The notes under the pieces were generated by a model, which worked only from the letters and a program-made list of their open reading frames with translations, ran no database searches and had not been told where the DNA came from. Shown here piece after piece: positions 1 through 30,256 of a stretch of 64,000 bases of DNA. This DNA comes from a virus. The stretch is taken from positions 1-64,000 of the IMG/VR virus record IMGVR_UViG_3300032242_000818. One strand, 5' to 3'. A program made the position numbers and the translations under genes. Each line of letters starts with the position of its first letter. The stretch's first letter is position 1.

Positions 1-284
1 GTTTAGGCTGCTAATGCGAACTGTGCGTCGTTTGCGTTTACGTTGTTTTAGTTTTTACATCTACTCTGATGAGTTGTCCACTTCTGTACTTGTTGCCCTG
101 TCGAAACCTAGTCACCCCCATCAGAAACATACTATGGTGAAATTGACTTACATCGTAGAGGTCACGGCTTACCAATCCTGATCCCAACCTTTCGGTTTTG
201 TAGAGATTTAAGTATGCTTCTGGTGGAGGTGGGGAGAATCGAACTCCCGTCCAGAACACTTTTCTAGTTGCTTCATACAACCGT
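1..284 (-). ncRNA. ssrA: tmRNA, circularly permuted two-piece type (partial, runs off the window start)
   Basis: Rescues stalled ribosomes and tags the nascent peptide. In the minus direction the acceptor piece comes first: T arm GGGAG/TTCGATT/CTCCC (232-248), acceptor strand CACCTCC (225-231), then A and CCA (221-224). A spacer of about 100 bases follows (120-220). The coding piece then starts at 119 with GGGGGTG, which pairs with CACCTCC through one G-U, followed by GACTAGGTTTCGACAGGG as in standard tmRNA 5' ends. The tag frame lies at 3-35. This order (3' part, spacer, 5' part) defines permuted tmRNA. The 3' end of the coding piece is outside the window. The spacer contains no other gene that I can see. 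Confidence 0.93.
3..35 (-). other. tmRNA tag reading frame (ANDAQFALAA)
   Basis: The codons GCA AAC GAC GCA CAG TTC GCA TTA GCA GCC are followed by TAA at 3-5 and encode ANDAQFALAA. The ALAA end is the usual ClpXP/ClpAP degron, and the AND start matches bacterial tags. The resume codon GCA (33-35) is assigned by alignment with known tags; two more sense codons (GTA AAC) precede it in frame. Confidence 0.9.
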
Positions 285-290
285 ATCACT

Positions 291-319
291 ATTATACATT
301 ATTTATTCTTACTTGTCAA
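291..319 (-). promoter_or_regulatory. Consensus sigma-70 promoter of the tmRNA
   Basis: TTGACA (314-319), 17-base spacer, TATAAT (291-296). This perfect consensus predicts a start near 284, just upstream of the acceptor piece. Confidence 0.8.
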
Positions 320-1026
320 ATATCGATTGAACCAACATTTGCAAATTCTTTTAGAAATTCATAAGTCTTATCTGTTGTAATACCAGTTGTAACCAAAGTA
401 AATCTAGGATTACGACCAGCATTTGCTGTACAGTGAGGTACGTGTTTCCAATCAAAGGTATGAACATCACCTTCCTTCCAATGGGTATAGACATGGTTGC
501 CATATTGGTAGAAATGTCCAGGCTCCCAGTCAGAAAGCATAATAACAATGCGCATAATTCTGCTATGGTCAGAAGGATAAATTCTACCCAACTTATCAAT
601 GTGCATATTAAAGACTTCACCTACTACTTGCATATGCGTTTTATCGTGGCCATTTTCAAGACCAATCATATTACATATCTTTTGTAACTTAGGTGTTAAT
701 GAAGCACCCATATGACAGATACTCATAGCAGGATTACCGCCACCTTGTTCAATATCATATTCCTCAGCTTCAATCCAATTATTTGGAGGAGTTTCAGTTC
801 CACCATCACCACGACTGGTTTTTGCACCAAAGATACGAGTGCGCCATGAAGCAGAATTAGAATTTTGTTTGATCCATTCTCTTTCTTCAGAGAAATCGCT
901 ATTGAATCTTCCGAGACCTTTGACACAATCCCAACGTGGATCAAAACGATTTACATCGAAATGATATTGGGATTGGTTTTTTGAAATTTCCTCGAAAGAA
1001 CTTTTTTTAAGTTCTACGAATTCCAT
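316..1026 (-). CDS. Fe(II)/2OG-dependent oxygenase (beta-hydroxylase-like)
   Basis: 236 aa. The jelly-roll metal site is visible as H142-x-D144 (in FNMHIDKLG), distal H198 (VPHCTANAG) and R208, the usual 2OG-binding arginine. This resembles the aspartyl/asparaginyl beta-hydroxylase-like branch; the substrate is unknown. The start codon is one base after the stop of the TctC-like gene (TGA-A-ATG), so the two genes are co-transcribed. It is one of 17 such oxygenases in the window. Confidence 0.8.
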   Translation of the reverse strand: MEFVELKKSSFEEISKNQSQYHFDVNRFDPRWDCVKGLGRFNSDFSEEREWIKQNSNSASWRTRIFGAKTSRGDGGTETPPNNWIEAEEYDIEQGGGNPAMSICHMGASLTPKLQKICNMIGLENGHDKTHMQVVGEVFNMHIDKLGRIYPSDHSRIMRIVIMLSDWEPGHFYQYGNHVYTHWKEGDVHTFDWKHVPHCTANAGRNPRFTLVTTGITTDKTYEFLKEFANVGSIDI

Positions 1027-25811: not shown

Positions 25812-25886
25812 TGGAGCAGGATATCGGATTCGAACCGATGACATTTTCGTTGGCAACGAAACATTCTACCACTGAATTAATCCTGC
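25812..25886 (-). tRNA. tRNA-Gly(GCC)
   Basis: 75 nt, acceptor GCAGGAT/ATCCTGC, anticodon loop TTGCCAA, encoded CCA. It stands alone between two oxygenase genes, 1.2 kb from the main cluster. Confidence 0.95.
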
Positions 25887-27067: not shown

Positions 27068-27141
27068 TGGAGCGGAGTGAGAGAATCGAACTCTCAACAA
27101 CAGATTGGAAATCTGTAGTTTTACCATTAAACTAATCCCGC
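27068..27141 (-). tRNA. tRNA-Gly(TCC)
   Basis: 74 nt, acceptor starts GCGGGAT, anticodon loop TTTCCAA, encoded CCA. Last gene of the cluster in the direction of transcription. Confidence 0.95.
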
Positions 27142-27144
27142 AAT

Positions 27145-27218
27145 TGGCATCCCGATAGGGACTCGAACCCCAACCAACAGTTTTGGAGACTGCTATGCTG
27201 CCATTACACCATCGAGAT
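27145..27218 (-). tRNA. tRNA-Trp(CCA)
   Basis: 74 nt, acceptor ATCTCGA/TCGGGAT, anticodon loop CTCCAAA, G73, encoded CCA. Confidence 0.95.
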
Positions 27219-27222
27219 ACAT

Positions 27223-27298
27223 TGGTGCCCTTGGACGGATTCGAACCGCCCACCTACTGATTACTAATCAGTTGCTCTACCAAATGAGCTACAAGGGC
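27223..27298 (-). tRNA. tRNA-Thr(AGT)
   Basis: 76 nt, acceptor GCCCTTG, stem ACTGA/TCAGT, loop TTAGTAA, which places A at position 34. Bacteria rarely use A34 outside Arg(ACG). Encoded CCA. Confidence 0.88.
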
Positions 27299-27302
27299 AA
27301 AC

Positions 27303-27377
27303 TGGTGGTGATGAGTGGAATCGAGCCACTAACCTACTCCGTATGAAGGAGTTGCACTACCGTTGTGCTACATCACC
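27303..27377 (-). tRNA. tRNA-Met(CAT), elongator-type
   Basis: 75 nt, acceptor GGTGATG/CATCACC (G1-C72, so not an initiator), loop TTCATAC, encoded CCA. Ile(k2CAT) cannot be excluded. Confidence 0.88.
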
Positions 27378-27401
27378 ATTGTTGAACGTACTGTTATGTG
27401 T

Positions 27402-27467
27402 TTAGTTGGCAGCTTTAAATTCCTGCCACCAGATCCTCAAGCATTTCAATCTATGATGGGTGGTCAT
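27402..27467 (-). CDS. Possible microprotein, 21 aa, in the tRNA cluster gap
   Basis: The 180-base gap 27378-27558 has no tRNA. It holds ATG 27467 with GGAG 7 bases upstream, encoding MTTHHRLKCLRIWWQEFKAA plus one residue. Weak; the gap may be RNA or degraded sequence. Confidence 0.25.
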   Translation of the reverse strand: MTTHHRLKCLRIWWQEFKAAN

Positions 27468-27558
27468 AAATTCTCTCCAGATAATGGACGCTGTCTTGAC
27501 TGGCGATTATCTTCCCTAACAGTTGGGATGCCCTTTCTTTTGCTCACACATTCAACAA

Positions 27559-27641
27559 TGGTGCCCCAAGAGAGACTCGAACTCTCACACCGAAGTACTG
27601 GCTTCTAAGACCAGCGTGTCTACCAATTCCACCATCGGGGC
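27559..27641 (-). tRNA. tRNA-Leu(TAG)
   Basis: 83 nt with a long variable arm, acceptor GCCCCGA, loop CTTAGAA, encoded CCA. Confidence 0.95.
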
Positions 27642-27648
27642 ATTCATT

Positions 27649-27726
27649 TGGTTGCAGAGGTTGGATTCGAACCAACGATTTCATGGCTTATGAGACCAGA
27701 CGGATAGACCACTTCCATACTCTGCG
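27649..27726 (-). tRNA. tRNA-fMet(CAT), initiator
   Basis: 78 nt. Acceptor CGCAGAG/CTCTGCA leaves C1 and A72 unpaired, the initiator hallmark. Loop CTCATAA. The three G-C pairs usual in the initiator anticodon stem are not conserved. Encoded CCA. Confidence 0.85.
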
Positions 27727-27745
27727 ATAACTTACTACTTATAAT

Positions 27746-27820
27746 TGGCTCCAGAGGCAGGGATCGAACCTACGACCAATTGATTAACAGTCAACTGCAC
27801 TACCGCTGTGCTACTCTGGA
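27746..27820 (-). tRNA. tRNA-Asn(GTT)
   Basis: 75 nt, acceptor TCCAGAG, loop CTGTTAA, G73, encoded CCA. Confidence 0.95.
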
Positions 27821-27827
27821 ATAAAAC

Positions 27828-27902
27828 TGGCGACTCGTAGGAGAATCGAACTCCTGTGTCCTGCTAGACAGGCAGGCATAATAACCATTATATTAACGAG
27901 CC
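27828..27902 (-). tRNA. tRNA-Asp(GTC)
   Basis: 75 nt, acceptor GGCTCGT, stem CCT GC/GCAGG, loop CTGTCTA, G73, encoded CCA. Confidence 0.95.
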
Positions 27903-27908
27903 AAAAAA

Positions 27909-28001
27909 TGGTGGAGCAACTTGGAGTCGAACCAAGATTGTTTACCCAGAGGGACGAGATTTACAGTCTCGGGATGCACACGCCATAGCATCAATTGCTC
28001 C
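27909..28001 (-). tRNA. tRNA-Tyr(GTA)
   Basis: 93 nt with a long variable arm, acceptor GGAGCAA, loop CTGTAAA, encoded CCA. Its 5' end is 4 bases from structured RNA A. Confidence 0.94.
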
Positions 28002-28005
28002 ATGA

Positions 28006-28126
28006 TATTAGTTTAGATGACGCACTATTTGCTATGCTCAACGGAATTAGCTGCAGCATTACCGTTTCTATACATAGTTAGGGAGGGTTGACGTTTACCC
28101 AATCGCTTACGTCATCTAAACTAATA
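28006..28126 (-). ncRNA. Structured RNA A between tRNA genes (unknown)
   Basis: 121 nt bounded by a perfect 17-bp inverted repeat, 28006-28022 with 28110-28126 (TATTAGTTTAGATGACG and its complement). Inside: CTATG/CATAG (28032-28036, 28073-28077) enclosing AACGG/CCGTT and the palindrome GCTGCAGC, then GGGT/ACCC. No cloverleaf, no ORF. T4 has two stable RNAs of unknown function (RNA C and D) in its tRNA cluster; this may be an analogue. Confidence 0.65.
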
Positions 28127-28130
28127 CCAC

Positions 28131-28343
28131 ATTTAATTACACTGGGATGGTAGACAACAATCTGTTCAACAGTTTACCACGTCATCGTCTGACGATTGGT
28201 TGTTACCACATTACCTTCCAGTTTTGTCCAGCGTCCTCCTGATATTATCTCAAGGTTTCTTGTGTCTATGATCGGTTGGATCGGCACCCAACATTGCGAA
28301 TCATAGAACACCTACTGGCACTGGCAACCCAATGCAATTAAAT
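28131..28343 (-). ncRNA. Structured RNA B between tRNA genes (unknown)
   Basis: 213 nt closed by a 16-bp helix, 28328-28343 with 28131-28146, whose strands differ from exact complements only at two G-U pairs, the mark of a conserved RNA helix. Inside: TCTATGAT/ATCATAGA enclosing GTTGG/CCAAC, ATCGT/ACGAT, and ACAACAATC pairing with GATTGGTTGT around a bulge. It starts 1 base after the CCA of tRNA-Glu. No ORF seen. Function unknown. Confidence 0.68.
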
Positions 28344-28344
28344 C

Positions 28345-28420
28345 TGGTACTCGGTGGGGGAATCGAACCCCTCCTTCCTGCCGTGAAAGGGCAGTGTCCT
28401 AGCCGATAGACGAACCGAGC
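28345..28420 (-). tRNA. tRNA-Glu(TTC)
   Basis: 76 nt, acceptor GCTCGGT, stem CTGCC/GGCAG, loop CTTTCAC, encoded CCA. First tRNA after the internal promoter at 28540-28568. Confidence 0.95.
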
Positions 28421-28539
28421 ATGGTGGTGATTTAGTTTTTTGTCATCTGAACTTCACCAAACTTGACATTATGCCTCATGCACCGTATTTACCGTTGACT
28501 TAGAGAGGACTTTTGATTAATTTCTCAACCTAAGACATT
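28421..28539 (-). other. Leader region downstream of the internal cluster promoter
   Basis: No gene is evident between this promoter and tRNA-Glu. Only a 15-codon ORF without an RBS is seen. It probably forms the 5' leader removed by tRNA processing. Confidence 0.5.
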
Positions 28540-28568
28540 ATTATACCTCAACTTGCTATAAAAGTCAA
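28540..28568 (-). promoter_or_regulatory. Internal promoter of the tRNA cluster
   Basis: TTGACT (28563-28568), 17 bases, TATAAT (28540-28545). Drives tRNA-Glu, RNAs A and B, and the tRNAs down to 27068. Confidence 0.75.
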
Positions 28569-28604
28569 GCGATATTTTTAATCCCTTATTGCAAGAAAGG
28601 TTAT

Positions 28605-28678
28605 TGGAGTAAGTGACAGGAATCGAACCTGCTTCCATGGATTTGCAATCCAGTACCTGTCCAACTGGTTCCACTTAC
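28605..28678 (-). tRNA. tRNA-Cys(GCA)
   Basis: 74 nt, acceptor GTAAGTG/CACTTAC, loop TTGCAAA, T73, encoded CCA. Confidence 0.94.
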
Positions 28679-28683
28679 ATTAA

Positions 28684-28758
28684 TGGTGGGCTCAAGTGGA
28701 TTCGAACCACTACCTTATCAATTATGAGTTGACGGCACTACCTTTATGCTATGAGCCC
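28684..28758 (-). tRNA. tRNA-Met or Ile2 (CAT)
   Basis: 75 nt, acceptor GGGCTCA/TGAGCCC, loop CTCATAA, encoded CCA. Third CAT tRNA of the set. One of the two non-initiator CAT tRNAs may be Ile2 reading AUA after lysidine modification. Confidence 0.85.
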
Positions 28759-28764
28759 AACAAC

Positions 28765-28839
28765 TGGCGCGACATGCAGGAATCGAACCCACATTCGTAG
28801 GGTAGAAGCCTACTGTATTATCCATTATACTAATGCCGC
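28765..28839 (-). tRNA. tRNA-Arg(TCT)
   Basis: 75 nt, acceptor GCGGCAT, stem GTAGG/CCTAC, loop CTTCTAC, G73, encoded CCA. Confidence 0.95.
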
Positions 28840-28845
28840 AAAAAT

Positions 28846-28931
28846 TGGTACGAGTGGAGGGACTTGAACCCTCAATCCATTACTGGCGACAGATTTTAAG
28901 TCTGTAGTGTATACCATTCCACCACACTCGC
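28846..28931 (-). tRNA. tRNA-Leu(TAA)
   Basis: 86 nt with a long variable arm, acceptor GCGAGTG, loop CTTAAAA, encoded CCA. Confidence 0.95.
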
Positions 28932-28940
28932 AACTAACAC

Positions 28941-29029
28941 TGGCGGAAGATGTGAGAGTTGAACTCACTCACCGATTTAACTCGATGACAGATTAGCAAT
29001 CTGCTGCATTACCGTCCTGCCCATCTTCC
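28941..29029 (-). tRNA. tRNA-Ser(GCT)
   Basis: 89 nt with a long variable arm, acceptor GGAAGAT, loop TTGCTAA, G73, encoded CCA. Confidence 0.95.
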
Positions 29030-29035
29030 TAACTT

Positions 29036-29111
29036 TGGTACCCAATAGAGGAATTGAACCTCTACCTCTGCGTTCGTAGCACAGTGTGATCATCCATTTC
29101 ACCAATCGGGC
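29036..29111 (-). tRNA. tRNA-Arg(ACG)
   Basis: 76 nt, acceptor GCCCGAT, stem CTGTG/CGCAG, loop CTACGAA (A34, expected to become inosine), encoded CCA. Confidence 0.94.
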
Positions 29112-29116
29112 ATATT

Positions 29117-29208
29117 TGGCGGAAAGCAGAGGAGTCGAACCCCATCCCATTTCTGAGAACCCAGTTTTCAAGGCTGGTCGGCGCACCAACGCACCTGCAT
29201 TACTTTCC
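29117..29208 (-). tRNA. tRNA-Ser(TGA)
   Basis: 92 nt with a long variable arm, acceptor GGAAAGT, loop CTTGAAA, G73, encoded CCA. The last pair of the anticodon stem is C-A. Confidence 0.92.
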
Positions 29209-29213
29209 ATATT

Positions 29214-29288
29214 TGGTACCTCGTGACAGATTCGAACTGCCGACCTTCTCCGTGTAAAGGAGACACTCTACCACTGAGTTAACGAGGC
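29214..29288 (-). tRNA. tRNA-Val(TAC)
   Basis: 75 nt, acceptor GCCTCGT, loop TTTACAC, encoded CCA. Confidence 0.95.
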
Positions 29289-29294
29289 ATATTT

Positions 29295-29369
29295 TGGTGG
29301 ACCGTAAGAGAATCGAACTCTTACCTCTGACGTGCAAAGCCAGCGTGCTCCCATTATCACTAACAGCCC
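29295..29369 (-). tRNA. tRNA-Ala(TGC)
   Basis: 75 nt, acceptor GGGCTGT with two G-U pairs, stem CTGGC/GTCAG, loop TTTGCAC, encoded CCA. Confidence 0.93.
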
Positions 29370-29376
29370 AAAACAT

Positions 29377-29453
<77 letters not shown>

Positions 29454-29461
29454 ATAAAAAC

Positions 29462-29535
29462 TGGTGCCCCATGACAGAATCGAACTGCCGTAACCTGATT
29501 ACAAAACAGGTGTAATACCATTATACTAATAGGGC
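29462..29535 (-). tRNA. tRNA-Thr(TGT)
   Basis: 74 nt, acceptor GCCCTAT, loop TTTGTAA, encoded CCA. The last pair of the anticodon stem is a T-T mismatch. Confidence 0.92.
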
Positions 29536-29536
29536 A

Positions 29537-29610
29537 TGGTCCTCTCGACAAGAATTGAACTTGTAATGGACGCTTATCAAGCGTCTGTTATACCATTTAA
29601 CTACAAGAGG
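29537..29610 (-). tRNA. tRNA-Ile(GAT)
   Basis: 74 nt, acceptor CCTCTTG, stem GACGC/GCGTC, loop TTGATAA, encoded CCA. Begins 1 base from tRNA-Thr(TGT). Confidence 0.94.
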
Positions 29611-29615
29611 ATATT

Positions 29616-29691
29616 TGGTGCTGCCTAGTAGAATCGAACTACTTTCCGAGGTTCTTCAGACCCCTGCTATGACCACATCAGCTAAAGCAGC
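29616..29691 (-). tRNA. tRNA-Phe(GAA)
   Basis: 76 nt, acceptor GCTGCTT, loop CTGAAGA, encoded CCA. Confidence 0.95.
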
Positions 29692-29693
29692 AT

Positions 29694-29768
29694 TGGGGTG
29701 TCGTATGAGAATTGAACTCATGATGACGGAATCACAATCCGTAGTTTTACCACTAAACTAACAACACC
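29694..29768 (-). tRNA. tRNA-His(GTG)
   Basis: 75 nt including the encoded G-1, which pairs with C73 as required for His. Loop TTGTGAT, encoded CCA. Confidence 0.94.
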
Positions 29769-29773
29769 ATAAT

Positions 29774-29847
29774 TGGTAGGGGCACAGAGAATTGAACTCT
29801 GGTTAATAGGTTAAAAGCCTACTACTTTACCACTAAGTTATACCCCC
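29774..29847 (-). tRNA. tRNA-Lys(TTT)
   Basis: 74 nt, acceptor GGGGGTA/TGCCCCT, loop CTTTTAA, encoded CCA. Confidence 0.94.
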
Positions 29848-29855
29848 AAAACTTA

Positions 29856-29950
29856 CCAAACAAAAACACATTGAGTAGGAGTCGAACCTACATTTAATGC
29901 CTTATGAACACCATCCTGGCCAATTAGATGATCAATGTGTTTTTGTTTGG
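29856..29950 (-). ncRNA. tRNA-like element with 19-bp extended acceptor helix, no CCA
   Basis: The core 29868-29938 (71 nt) folds as a cloverleaf: acceptor ACATTGA/TCAATGT, D stem ATCT/AGGA, T arm GTAGG/TTCGACT/CCTAC, anticodon arm GGTGT/GCATT with G-U pairs. Its loop TCATAAG has C instead of U33. No CCA follows. The acceptor helix continues for 12 more pairs, a perfect 19-bp inverted repeat (29856-29874 with 29932-29950) that includes the CCA end of tRNA-Gln. It is either a degenerate tRNA or a dedicated tRNA-like RNA. Confidence 0.62.
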
Positions 29951-30021
29951 CACCCGAAATAAGAATCGAACTTATACTAACAGAGTCAAAGTCTGCTGTG
30001 CTACCACTACACCATTCGGGA
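29948..30021 (-). tRNA. tRNA-Gln(TTG)
   Basis: 74 nt, loop CTTTGAC, G73, encoded CCA. The first acceptor pair is open (U1, U72), as the opened first pair of Gln tRNAs requires. First tRNA of the cluster. Confidence 0.93.
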
Positions 30022-30073: not shown

Positions 30074-30105
30074 AAAACCCTCTAACTTTTCAGGTAGAGG
30101 GTTTT
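30074..30105 (-). terminator. Strong rho-independent terminator upstream of the tRNA cluster
   Basis: 11-bp stem AAAACCCTCTA/TAGAGGGTTTT, 10-base loop, followed in the minus direction by TTGTTTTTGG. Ends the short transcript from 30262-30290; tRNA transcription would need read-through or anti-termination. Confidence 0.8.
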
Positions 30106-30256
30106 GGGAAATAAACTAGTATTTGTTTACTTTACTTTCCAAAACCCCCTCGATCAAACGCATATGATACATTAATCTCTGGGCGTGAGCATGTCCAGCC
30201 ACTTAATAGTGGTAGATGTTTATTCATCTGTCTGGATATGTTTAACGATTTCATAG
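30106..30256 (-). ncRNA. Candidate small structured RNA with a three-way junction
   Basis: Between the promoter at 30262-30290 and the terminator at 30074-30105. CATATCCAG (30232-30240) pairs with CTGGACATG (30190-30198) with one A-C mismatch, closing two perfect hairpins, AGATG/CATCT (30214-30229) and CCACT/AGTGG (30199-30212), a three-way junction. With the terminator it makes a transcript of about 185 nt. Confidence 0.55.
30132..30254 (-). CDS. Possible leaderless microprotein, 40 aa
   Basis: ATG 30254 lies 7 bases after TATAAT. MKSLNISRQMNKHLPLLSGW ... YAFDRGGFGK to TAA 30132, then the terminator. It occupies the same bases as the three-way junction, so this may be a dual-function or purely non-coding RNA. 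Confidence 0.35.
   Translation of the reverse strand: MKSLNISRQMNKHLPLLSGWTCSRPEINVSYAFDRGGFGK

Follow-up and report, generated by a model that had tools for sequence, protein, structure and literature searches.

The window analysed here is a stretch of 64,000 nucleotides that forms part of a 164,717-base IMG/VR virus record and carries on its minus strand a tRNA array (27068–30021), in which ARAGORN recognised 26 tRNAs covering nearly all amino acids; a 27th tRNA lies outside the array at 25812. The array is adjoined by a minus-strand gene of an RNaseH_like protein (PF04308; 26560–27033), and upstream of it a strong hairpin is found at 30096–30150 (GGGGGTTTTGGAAAGTAAA / TTTATTTCCCAAAACCCTC), which is retained in many relatives. 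According to the Rfam search, a permuted (two-piece) tmRNA is located at the very start of the window (1–333, minus strand). The element considered below occupies positions 29856–29950 of the same strand, between tRNA-Gln(TTG) (29948–30021, ARAGORN) and its downstream neighbour tRNA-Lys(TTT) (29774–29847, ARAGORN).

The element is bounded by a perfect 19-bp inverted repeat (29856–29874 and 29932–29950) with the arms 57 nt apart. In the minus-strand RNA the 5′ arm CCAAACAAAAACACAUUGA (29932–29950) opens with the CCA encoded by tRNA-Gln, the 3′ arm is UCAAUGUGUUUUUGUUUGG (29856–29874), and the helix reaches 21 bp when the flanking U-A and G.U pairs are added. The predicted fold of this RNA (29950–29856) is a single 19-bp helix, hereafter the handle, enclosing a payload (29875–29931, minus strand) with a D-like arm (29930–29912), a wobble-rich anticodon-like arm (29911–29897), and a T arm (29891–29875; GUAGG UUCGACU CCUAC); its energy of −35.0 kcal/mol (z = −5.9) was equalled by none of 200 shuffles. 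ARAGORN reads positions 29866–29939 as “tRNA-Tyr(ata)”, and the Rfam tRNA model RF00005 scores 40.9 bits against a gathering threshold of 29, the weakest score among the tRNAs of the array. No CCA is encoded, the acceptor 3′ strand continuing into the helix (UUUUUGUUUGG), and in the ARAGORN layout the anticodon loop UCAUAAG has C at position 33. Thus the structural description given in the original prediction, namely, a tRNA-like cloverleaf with a good T arm, without CCA and with an abnormal anticodon loop, enclosed in a perfect 19-bp repeat which includes the CCA of tRNA-Gln, was reproduced from the sequence.

The nearest copies of the tRNA-like payload, found in relatives L009, L028, and L093 (loci are labelled with L and a number), are about 96–98% identical. 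ARAGORN tRNA layouts are present in close copies, the T stem is paired at 5/5 positions in every copy, and base 34 is A, G, or T among close copies. A more distant relative in L043, 74% identical, keeps the helix and the T arm with double changes, lacks a canonical anticodon arm, and receives no tRNA call from ARAGORN. Due to the variable base 34, C33, and the missing CCA, decoding by this payload is unlikely, while the presence of D and T arms suggests that it derives from or mimics a tRNA; most likely it would act as a structured small RNA, mimicking a tRNA or serving as a decoy, and be produced together with the tRNAs. Since this family includes only 5 distinct rows with 3 double-change pairs, a number attained in 88 of 500 shuffles, its handle would be insufficient proof if taken by itself.

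The array contains four stems of at least 18 bp within 260 nt, a number reached by 0 of 200 dinucleotide shuffles, so that the element at 29856–29950 is one of four. The three others, like the recurrence of the feature in relatives, were overlooked in the original prediction. A second cassette follows tRNA-Glu (28127–28347, minus strand) and combines the handle CCAGAUUUAAUUGCAUU/AGUGUAAUUAAAUGUGG with a large structured payload of the family designated S1. A third long-helix element, S2, for which relatives were also found, lies immediately before tRNA-Tyr (28001–28131, minus strand) and has a terminal helix of 24/24 bp, and a fourth is placed between tRNA-Leu(TAG) and tRNA-Met (27376–27561, minus strand). 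The latter contains a Shine-Dalgarno sequence and a 21-codon ORF, MTTHHRLKCLRIWWQEFKAAN, which is conserved in L004, L008, L021, and L038 and gave no match in isolated phages.

For the comparison with related phages 80 loci were fetched via the RNase H-like protein whose gene adjoins the array, so that the helix played no part in their selection, and 11 more loci were added from a handle-pattern scan; an element was counted as a helix-capped cassette when at least 15 of 17 positions were paired from the tRNA CCA to GG, the element at 29856–29950 having 17/17. Among distinct spacers of at least 20 nt after tRNA-Gln, including those of a few pattern-scan loci, 34 of 35 contain the helix running from the tRNA's own CCA to GG, and nine other tRNA-Gln spacers are only 2–8 nt long and have no handle. 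When all consecutive tRNA pairs 40–300 nt apart were taken from the protein-chosen loci alone, the helix was present in 64 of 301 spacers versus 0.15 expected from dinucleotide-shuffled spacers. Its frequency in this protein-chosen set depended on the junction: 28/28 after Gln, 12/21 after Leu(TAG), 8/12 after Lys, 8/17 after Glu, 6/17 after Thr, and 2/8 after Val, while most tRNA junctions are without a handle. The shuffled-spacer count was used in place of the density of CCA..TGG stems outside arrays, an unclean control, as a palindromic element is counted on the opposite strand as well. The handles begin precisely at the CCA, and their far end often coincides with the 5′ GG of the following tRNA; in L019 three similar handles stand in tandem.

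The alignment of 38 distinct Gln-junction handles revealed that 11 of 17 pairs are changed on both sides, with 101 double-change cells versus 30.3 ± 4.9 in shuffled alignments (0/500) and at most 22 in slid registers; 97.4% of cells are paired, a value which is partly built in, as the alignment was drawn from loci with a detectable helix, while the site-defined counts are not. Two handle positions are special, i.e., position 8 (A.C mismatch, G-C, or A-U) and position 16 (U.G). Outside them the tRNA strand of the catalogued elements described below has 159 G.U pairs versus 38 A.C mismatches, a ratio to be read with the selection of that catalogue for pairing in mind and expected if selection acts on RNA read in the tRNA direction. 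Judged by the covariation together with the excess of G.U over A.C, the handle works as RNA on the tRNA strand. The outcome named in the original prediction as contrary to it, an ordinary tRNA with a decayed repeat in relatives, was looked for, and what the related phages contain is the same extension, kept with compensatory changes.

The handle arm AGTGTGYTTCAATATGGT was found in at least 120 viral stretches, and 142 of its 163 matches have the complementary arm at most 320 nt away. Two-arm handle patterns, which span only part of the handle diversity, gave 0 matches in 84,980 bacterial and archaeal genomes. Long-helix elements of the handle kind are present in the isolated phages BUCT-ZZ01 and RcXuper, and in the latter (L101, 143–769) four tandem cassettes have about CGCATGnnnGGGCATACTTCTA in common just inside the handle.

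The resulting catalogue includes 328 elements from 156 loci, 231 of which lie next to a tRNA, and the others may include stems formed by chance; single linkage divides the payloads into about 205 families, a number affected by the same selection of the catalogue for pairing. The counts of 34/35 Gln spacers, 142/163 second arms, and 64/301 junction spacers are free of this bias. The length inside the 17-bp arms is close to zero in L036 and L027 and reaches about 270 nt elsewhere, and the payloads range from bare loops through tRNA-like RNAs up to a structured RNA of 190 nt that covaries in its own right. A T-arm-like hairpin occurs in 28 of 328 payloads, the element at 29856–29950 among them, and tRNA-like payloads that include a T arm turn up repeatedly in forms unrelated to one another. 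The majority of payloads do not resemble a tRNA. Handles with almost no payload (L027, L036, L038, and L040), together with the handle-less spacers of 2–8 nt, indicate that neither the handle nor the payload is essential for tRNA-Gln maturation.

Sequence comparison shows that payloads are swapped between handles and junctions. In L009 and L028 the tRNA-like cassette is 92–96% identical to that of the window, while the 300-nt leader is only 67% identical; in L004 the leader (93%) and tRNA-Gln (97%) are conserved, while the cassette is a different one (49%). One payload (GCCGAACAGACAAAUGG...) stands in differing handles in L123, L138, L187, and L195, and payload families are conserved at 85–95% across phages, sites, and handles. 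In the S1 family, whose payload follows tRNA-Glu in the window and which is represented by 24 aligned sequences, 19 of 40 predicted pairs show double changes and some stretches are invariant, and a copy in L020 is found after tRNA-Gln within a handle of the Gln type. These compensatory changes and the copy in L020 indicate that at least the S1 payload is itself a conserved RNA.

The same 10-bp handle core was encountered in the permuted tmRNA, where the acceptor stem and the handle form one 20/21-bp helix (113–231, minus strand) which closes the intervening segment (120–223) and is composed of the acceptor stem, CCA, and CAGAAGCAUACU/AGUAUGUUUCUG. A permuted tmRNA was detected in 19 of 20 records that belong to relatives or handle carriers and were selected largely by length, and in 6 of 14 mostly shorter records (7 with one weak match), one record being common to both sets. 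In 16 tmRNAs with placeable ends the CCA is followed by ten pairs in which the core of the junction handle recurs, down to the A.C or G-C position and the U.G position. Payloads at tRNA junctions of other phages are 85–95% identical, in the same direction, to the inserts within the tmRNAs of L232, L236, and L241; this ties the tmRNA and the tRNA junctions to one cassette pool. The precursors of permuted tmRNA are cut by tRNA-processing enzymes, and the insert is not part of the mature RNA (PMC11915505).

According to these data the element at 29856–29950 probably (at about two chances in three) belongs to a large family of RNA cassettes in phages, each consisting of a handle and an exchangeable payload and lodged between mature tRNA ends. 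Direct support in sequence comparison comes from the helix at the RNA level, the fixed site at mature tRNA ends, the exchangeable and partly conserved payloads, and the identity of payloads with tmRNA inserts; from these we infer excision of the cassettes, their production as RNA, and the function of the payloads. The handle would be a helix of about 17–21 bp from the CCA of the preceding tRNA to GG, often the 5′ GG of the next tRNA, with a conserved 10-bp core (A.C or G-C or A-U, AA/UU, RYRY, A-U, U.G or Y-R, U-A), and the payload RNA would occupy its loop and be freely exchanged. The handles are situated between a mature CCA-3′ end and the mature 5′ end opposite it, at tRNA-tRNA junctions and in the intervening segment of permuted tmRNA. 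The cassettes would be transcribed together with the tRNAs, the handle holding the two mature ends together and leaving the payload folded apart, and both tRNAs would be released by RNase P at the downstream 5′ end and by 3′ trimming to CCA, perhaps after a double-strand cut in the handle of RNase III type. The search for an RNase III family match in the phage record found none, so the host RNase III would be needed for that route. The payload would be freed as an exonuclease-resistant hairpin RNA, and the common handle sequences could also supply homology for payload swapping. The broadest form of this proposal, in which large tailed phages encode hundreds of small structured RNAs on one common helical handle, which are set in the gaps at tRNA ends and in split tmRNA, co-expressed, cut out by tRNA maturation, swapped between phages, and probably directed against RNA-directed defences of the host, is a single joint claim, tentative as a whole and somewhat short of even odds.

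From this standpoint the processing signal is the best-supported of the roles listed in the original prediction, given that the helix begins at the mature CCA-3′ end and that a helix of the same type closes the removed segment of tmRNA, and sequestration of the tRNA-Gln end is consistent with the pairing; its interpretation of the element is thus partly supported. The handle could also be a mere maturation spacer, presenting the CCA-3′ and G-5′ ends side by side to the tRNA enzymes, or an RNase III stalk of the type that flanks 16S and 23S rRNA, with the payload as disposable filler. The exact start at CCA, the frequent finish at the next 5′ GG, the existence of bare hairpins, and the removal of the tmRNA insert by tRNA enzymes (PMC11915505) would all fit such a role, while it accounts poorly for payload families conserved at 85–95% across phages, sites, and handles, for the 19 compensatory pairs and invariant stretches of S1, and for the lack of a handle at most junctions, so it is considered doubtful. 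Somewhat more plausible, and a special case of the cassette proposal, is that payloads are counter-defence RNAs, i.e., decoys or inhibitors of host systems directed at tRNAs or at RNA of other kinds; the tRNA-like payload would then act as a tRNA decoy. Evasion of tRNA-targeting defence is a described property of phage tRNAs (PMC11555353), the payloads are hypervariable and swapped as units among close relatives, as an arms race would predict, and those with T arms recur in unrelated forms. A decoy for tRNA-cutting defences, another role put forward originally, is thus possible for the payload at 29875–29931; however, with T-arm-like hairpins in such a small part of the payloads, a tRNA decoy cannot explain the whole cassette family. 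The counter-defence role as such is possible and is held here as a conjecture.

The remaining explanations are less probable. The repeat could be a DNA-level element, such as the terminal inverted repeats bounding a mobile cassette, a site of the integron attC type, or a site of recombination beside tRNA genes, in agreement with the same payloads at different tRNA junctions and in tmRNA and with the tandem handles of L019; however, the payloads common to tmRNA and junctions share one reading direction, the ends match mature RNA ends also in tmRNA, and in repeats of DNA level G.U pairs on the tRNA strand would not so far outnumber A.C mismatches outside the two special positions, all of which makes this explanation improbable. 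A functional tRNA that has an uncommon anticodon and matures in an atypical way would explain the Rfam score above threshold and the ARAGORN layouts of close copies, and is even less probable in view of the absent CCA, C33, a base 34 that is A, G, or T in copies 95–97% identical, the L043 relative with neither canonical anticodon arm nor ARAGORN call, and an array which already supplies nearly all amino acids. The perfect palindrome and the lost CCA are the expected trace of tRNA decay in which a template switch copied the upstream flank over the 3′ end, while the helix with double changes in L043 speaks against such an origin; as a general explanation it is refuted by the handle covariation and by the same helix in 34 of 35 long Gln spacers, where the payloads enclosed are unrelated, and a single event of this kind at the origin would be a remote possibility.

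Several known systems resemble the cassettes in part. In rRNA operons a long helix recognised by RNase III closes a loop with the RNA to be excised, while the cassette helix starts at a tRNA CCA, has a conserved core and exchangeable loop contents, and would be cleaved by analogy. Integron gene cassettes carry exchangeable contents beside a conserved foldable repeat (attC), while in the phage cassettes selection acts on RNA pairing and the ends are mature RNA ends. The permuted tmRNA (Rfam RF04321 / RF01850) is alike in that tRNA enzymes remove a segment between CCA-3′ and 5′ ends, and in these phages the segment is closed by the same handle core and may contain the same payloads; unlike it, the cassettes are mostly placed between separate tRNA genes and split no functional RNA. 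A description of the handle common to cassettes and permuted tmRNA was not found. RNA C and RNA D of phage T4 (species 1 and 2), whose role is unknown (PMC3014915), are also small stable RNAs within a phage tRNA cluster, and RNA C ends in a T arm; however, they have no 17-bp handle from a tRNA CCA, and there is no long handle in the T4 cluster. GOLLD and ROOL are structured phage RNAs near tRNA islands, with unknown function (PMC12286853), and differ in being large single families with Rfam models, which gave no match in the window or among the best 150 of 156 matches at 11 payload-rich loci. No description of the cassette family was found in Rfam or in open-access papers, the scope of the search, and an earlier one in the subscription literature is possible.

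Some other candidates were tried and dropped. Resemblance of certain payloads to 23S stretches (GAAAAGACCC and GUAACUAU) raised the possibility of rRNA mimicry or antisense action, but there was no excess over shuffles: at E ≤ 0.1, 13 payload families were similar to rRNA in sense direction versus 15 shuffled, and 6 versus 10 in antisense. Known RNA families provided nothing beyond tRNA, tmRNA, and one group I intron (RF00028), located inside a phage tRNA array (L127, 13185–13378). The Rfam search of the array at E up to 1 returned only tRNA and weak sub-threshold matches, and at the 11 payload-rich loci no payload match was among the best 150 of 156. The cassettes of the window had no match in INPHARED phage DNA beyond a 20-nt T-arm stretch. 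The search for T4 RNA ligase 1 gave no match, and control genomes likewise gave none. The RNaseH_like protein PF04308 was not retained as a dedicated nuclease, since only 3 of 12 records with handles contain it, many of the 12 being fragments. Genes of this family are found in or beside the tRNA arrays of isolated Stenotrophomonas, Xanthomonas, Rhodobacter, and Ruegeria phages, in some of which a peptidyl-tRNA hydrolase adjoins the PF04308 gene.

These observations bear on the reasons for which large phages maintain long tRNA arrays and on the part played by the stable RNAs within them. The common handle makes the class searchable, so that candidate small RNAs can be drawn by the hundred from sequence, isolated phages included, and their release and their activity against tRNA-targeting defence can be examined. 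The core common to permuted tmRNA would bring tRNA junctions and two-piece tmRNA under one processing logic, and the handle could serve to embed an RNA in a tRNA transcript.

Related arrangements were observed in other arrays. In about 13 relatives an ordinary tRNA-His lies inside a 20–24 bp helix, its own CCA being paired with an upstream UGG (e.g., L012, 5584–5683; L014, 4803–4902; L025, 4987–5086; L043, 3038–3135; and L064, 5347–5444), and in L049 (7866–7975) a normal-looking tRNA-Asn(GTT) without CCA has an acceptor helix extended to 21 bp. Finally, a short ORF (ATGAAACG...) is located upstream of tRNA-Lys(CTT) in L019, L064, L067, L068, L075, L078, and L081; it contains an early in-frame TAG followed by a strong hairpin, and several of the carrier phages have an amber-reading tRNA (CTA).
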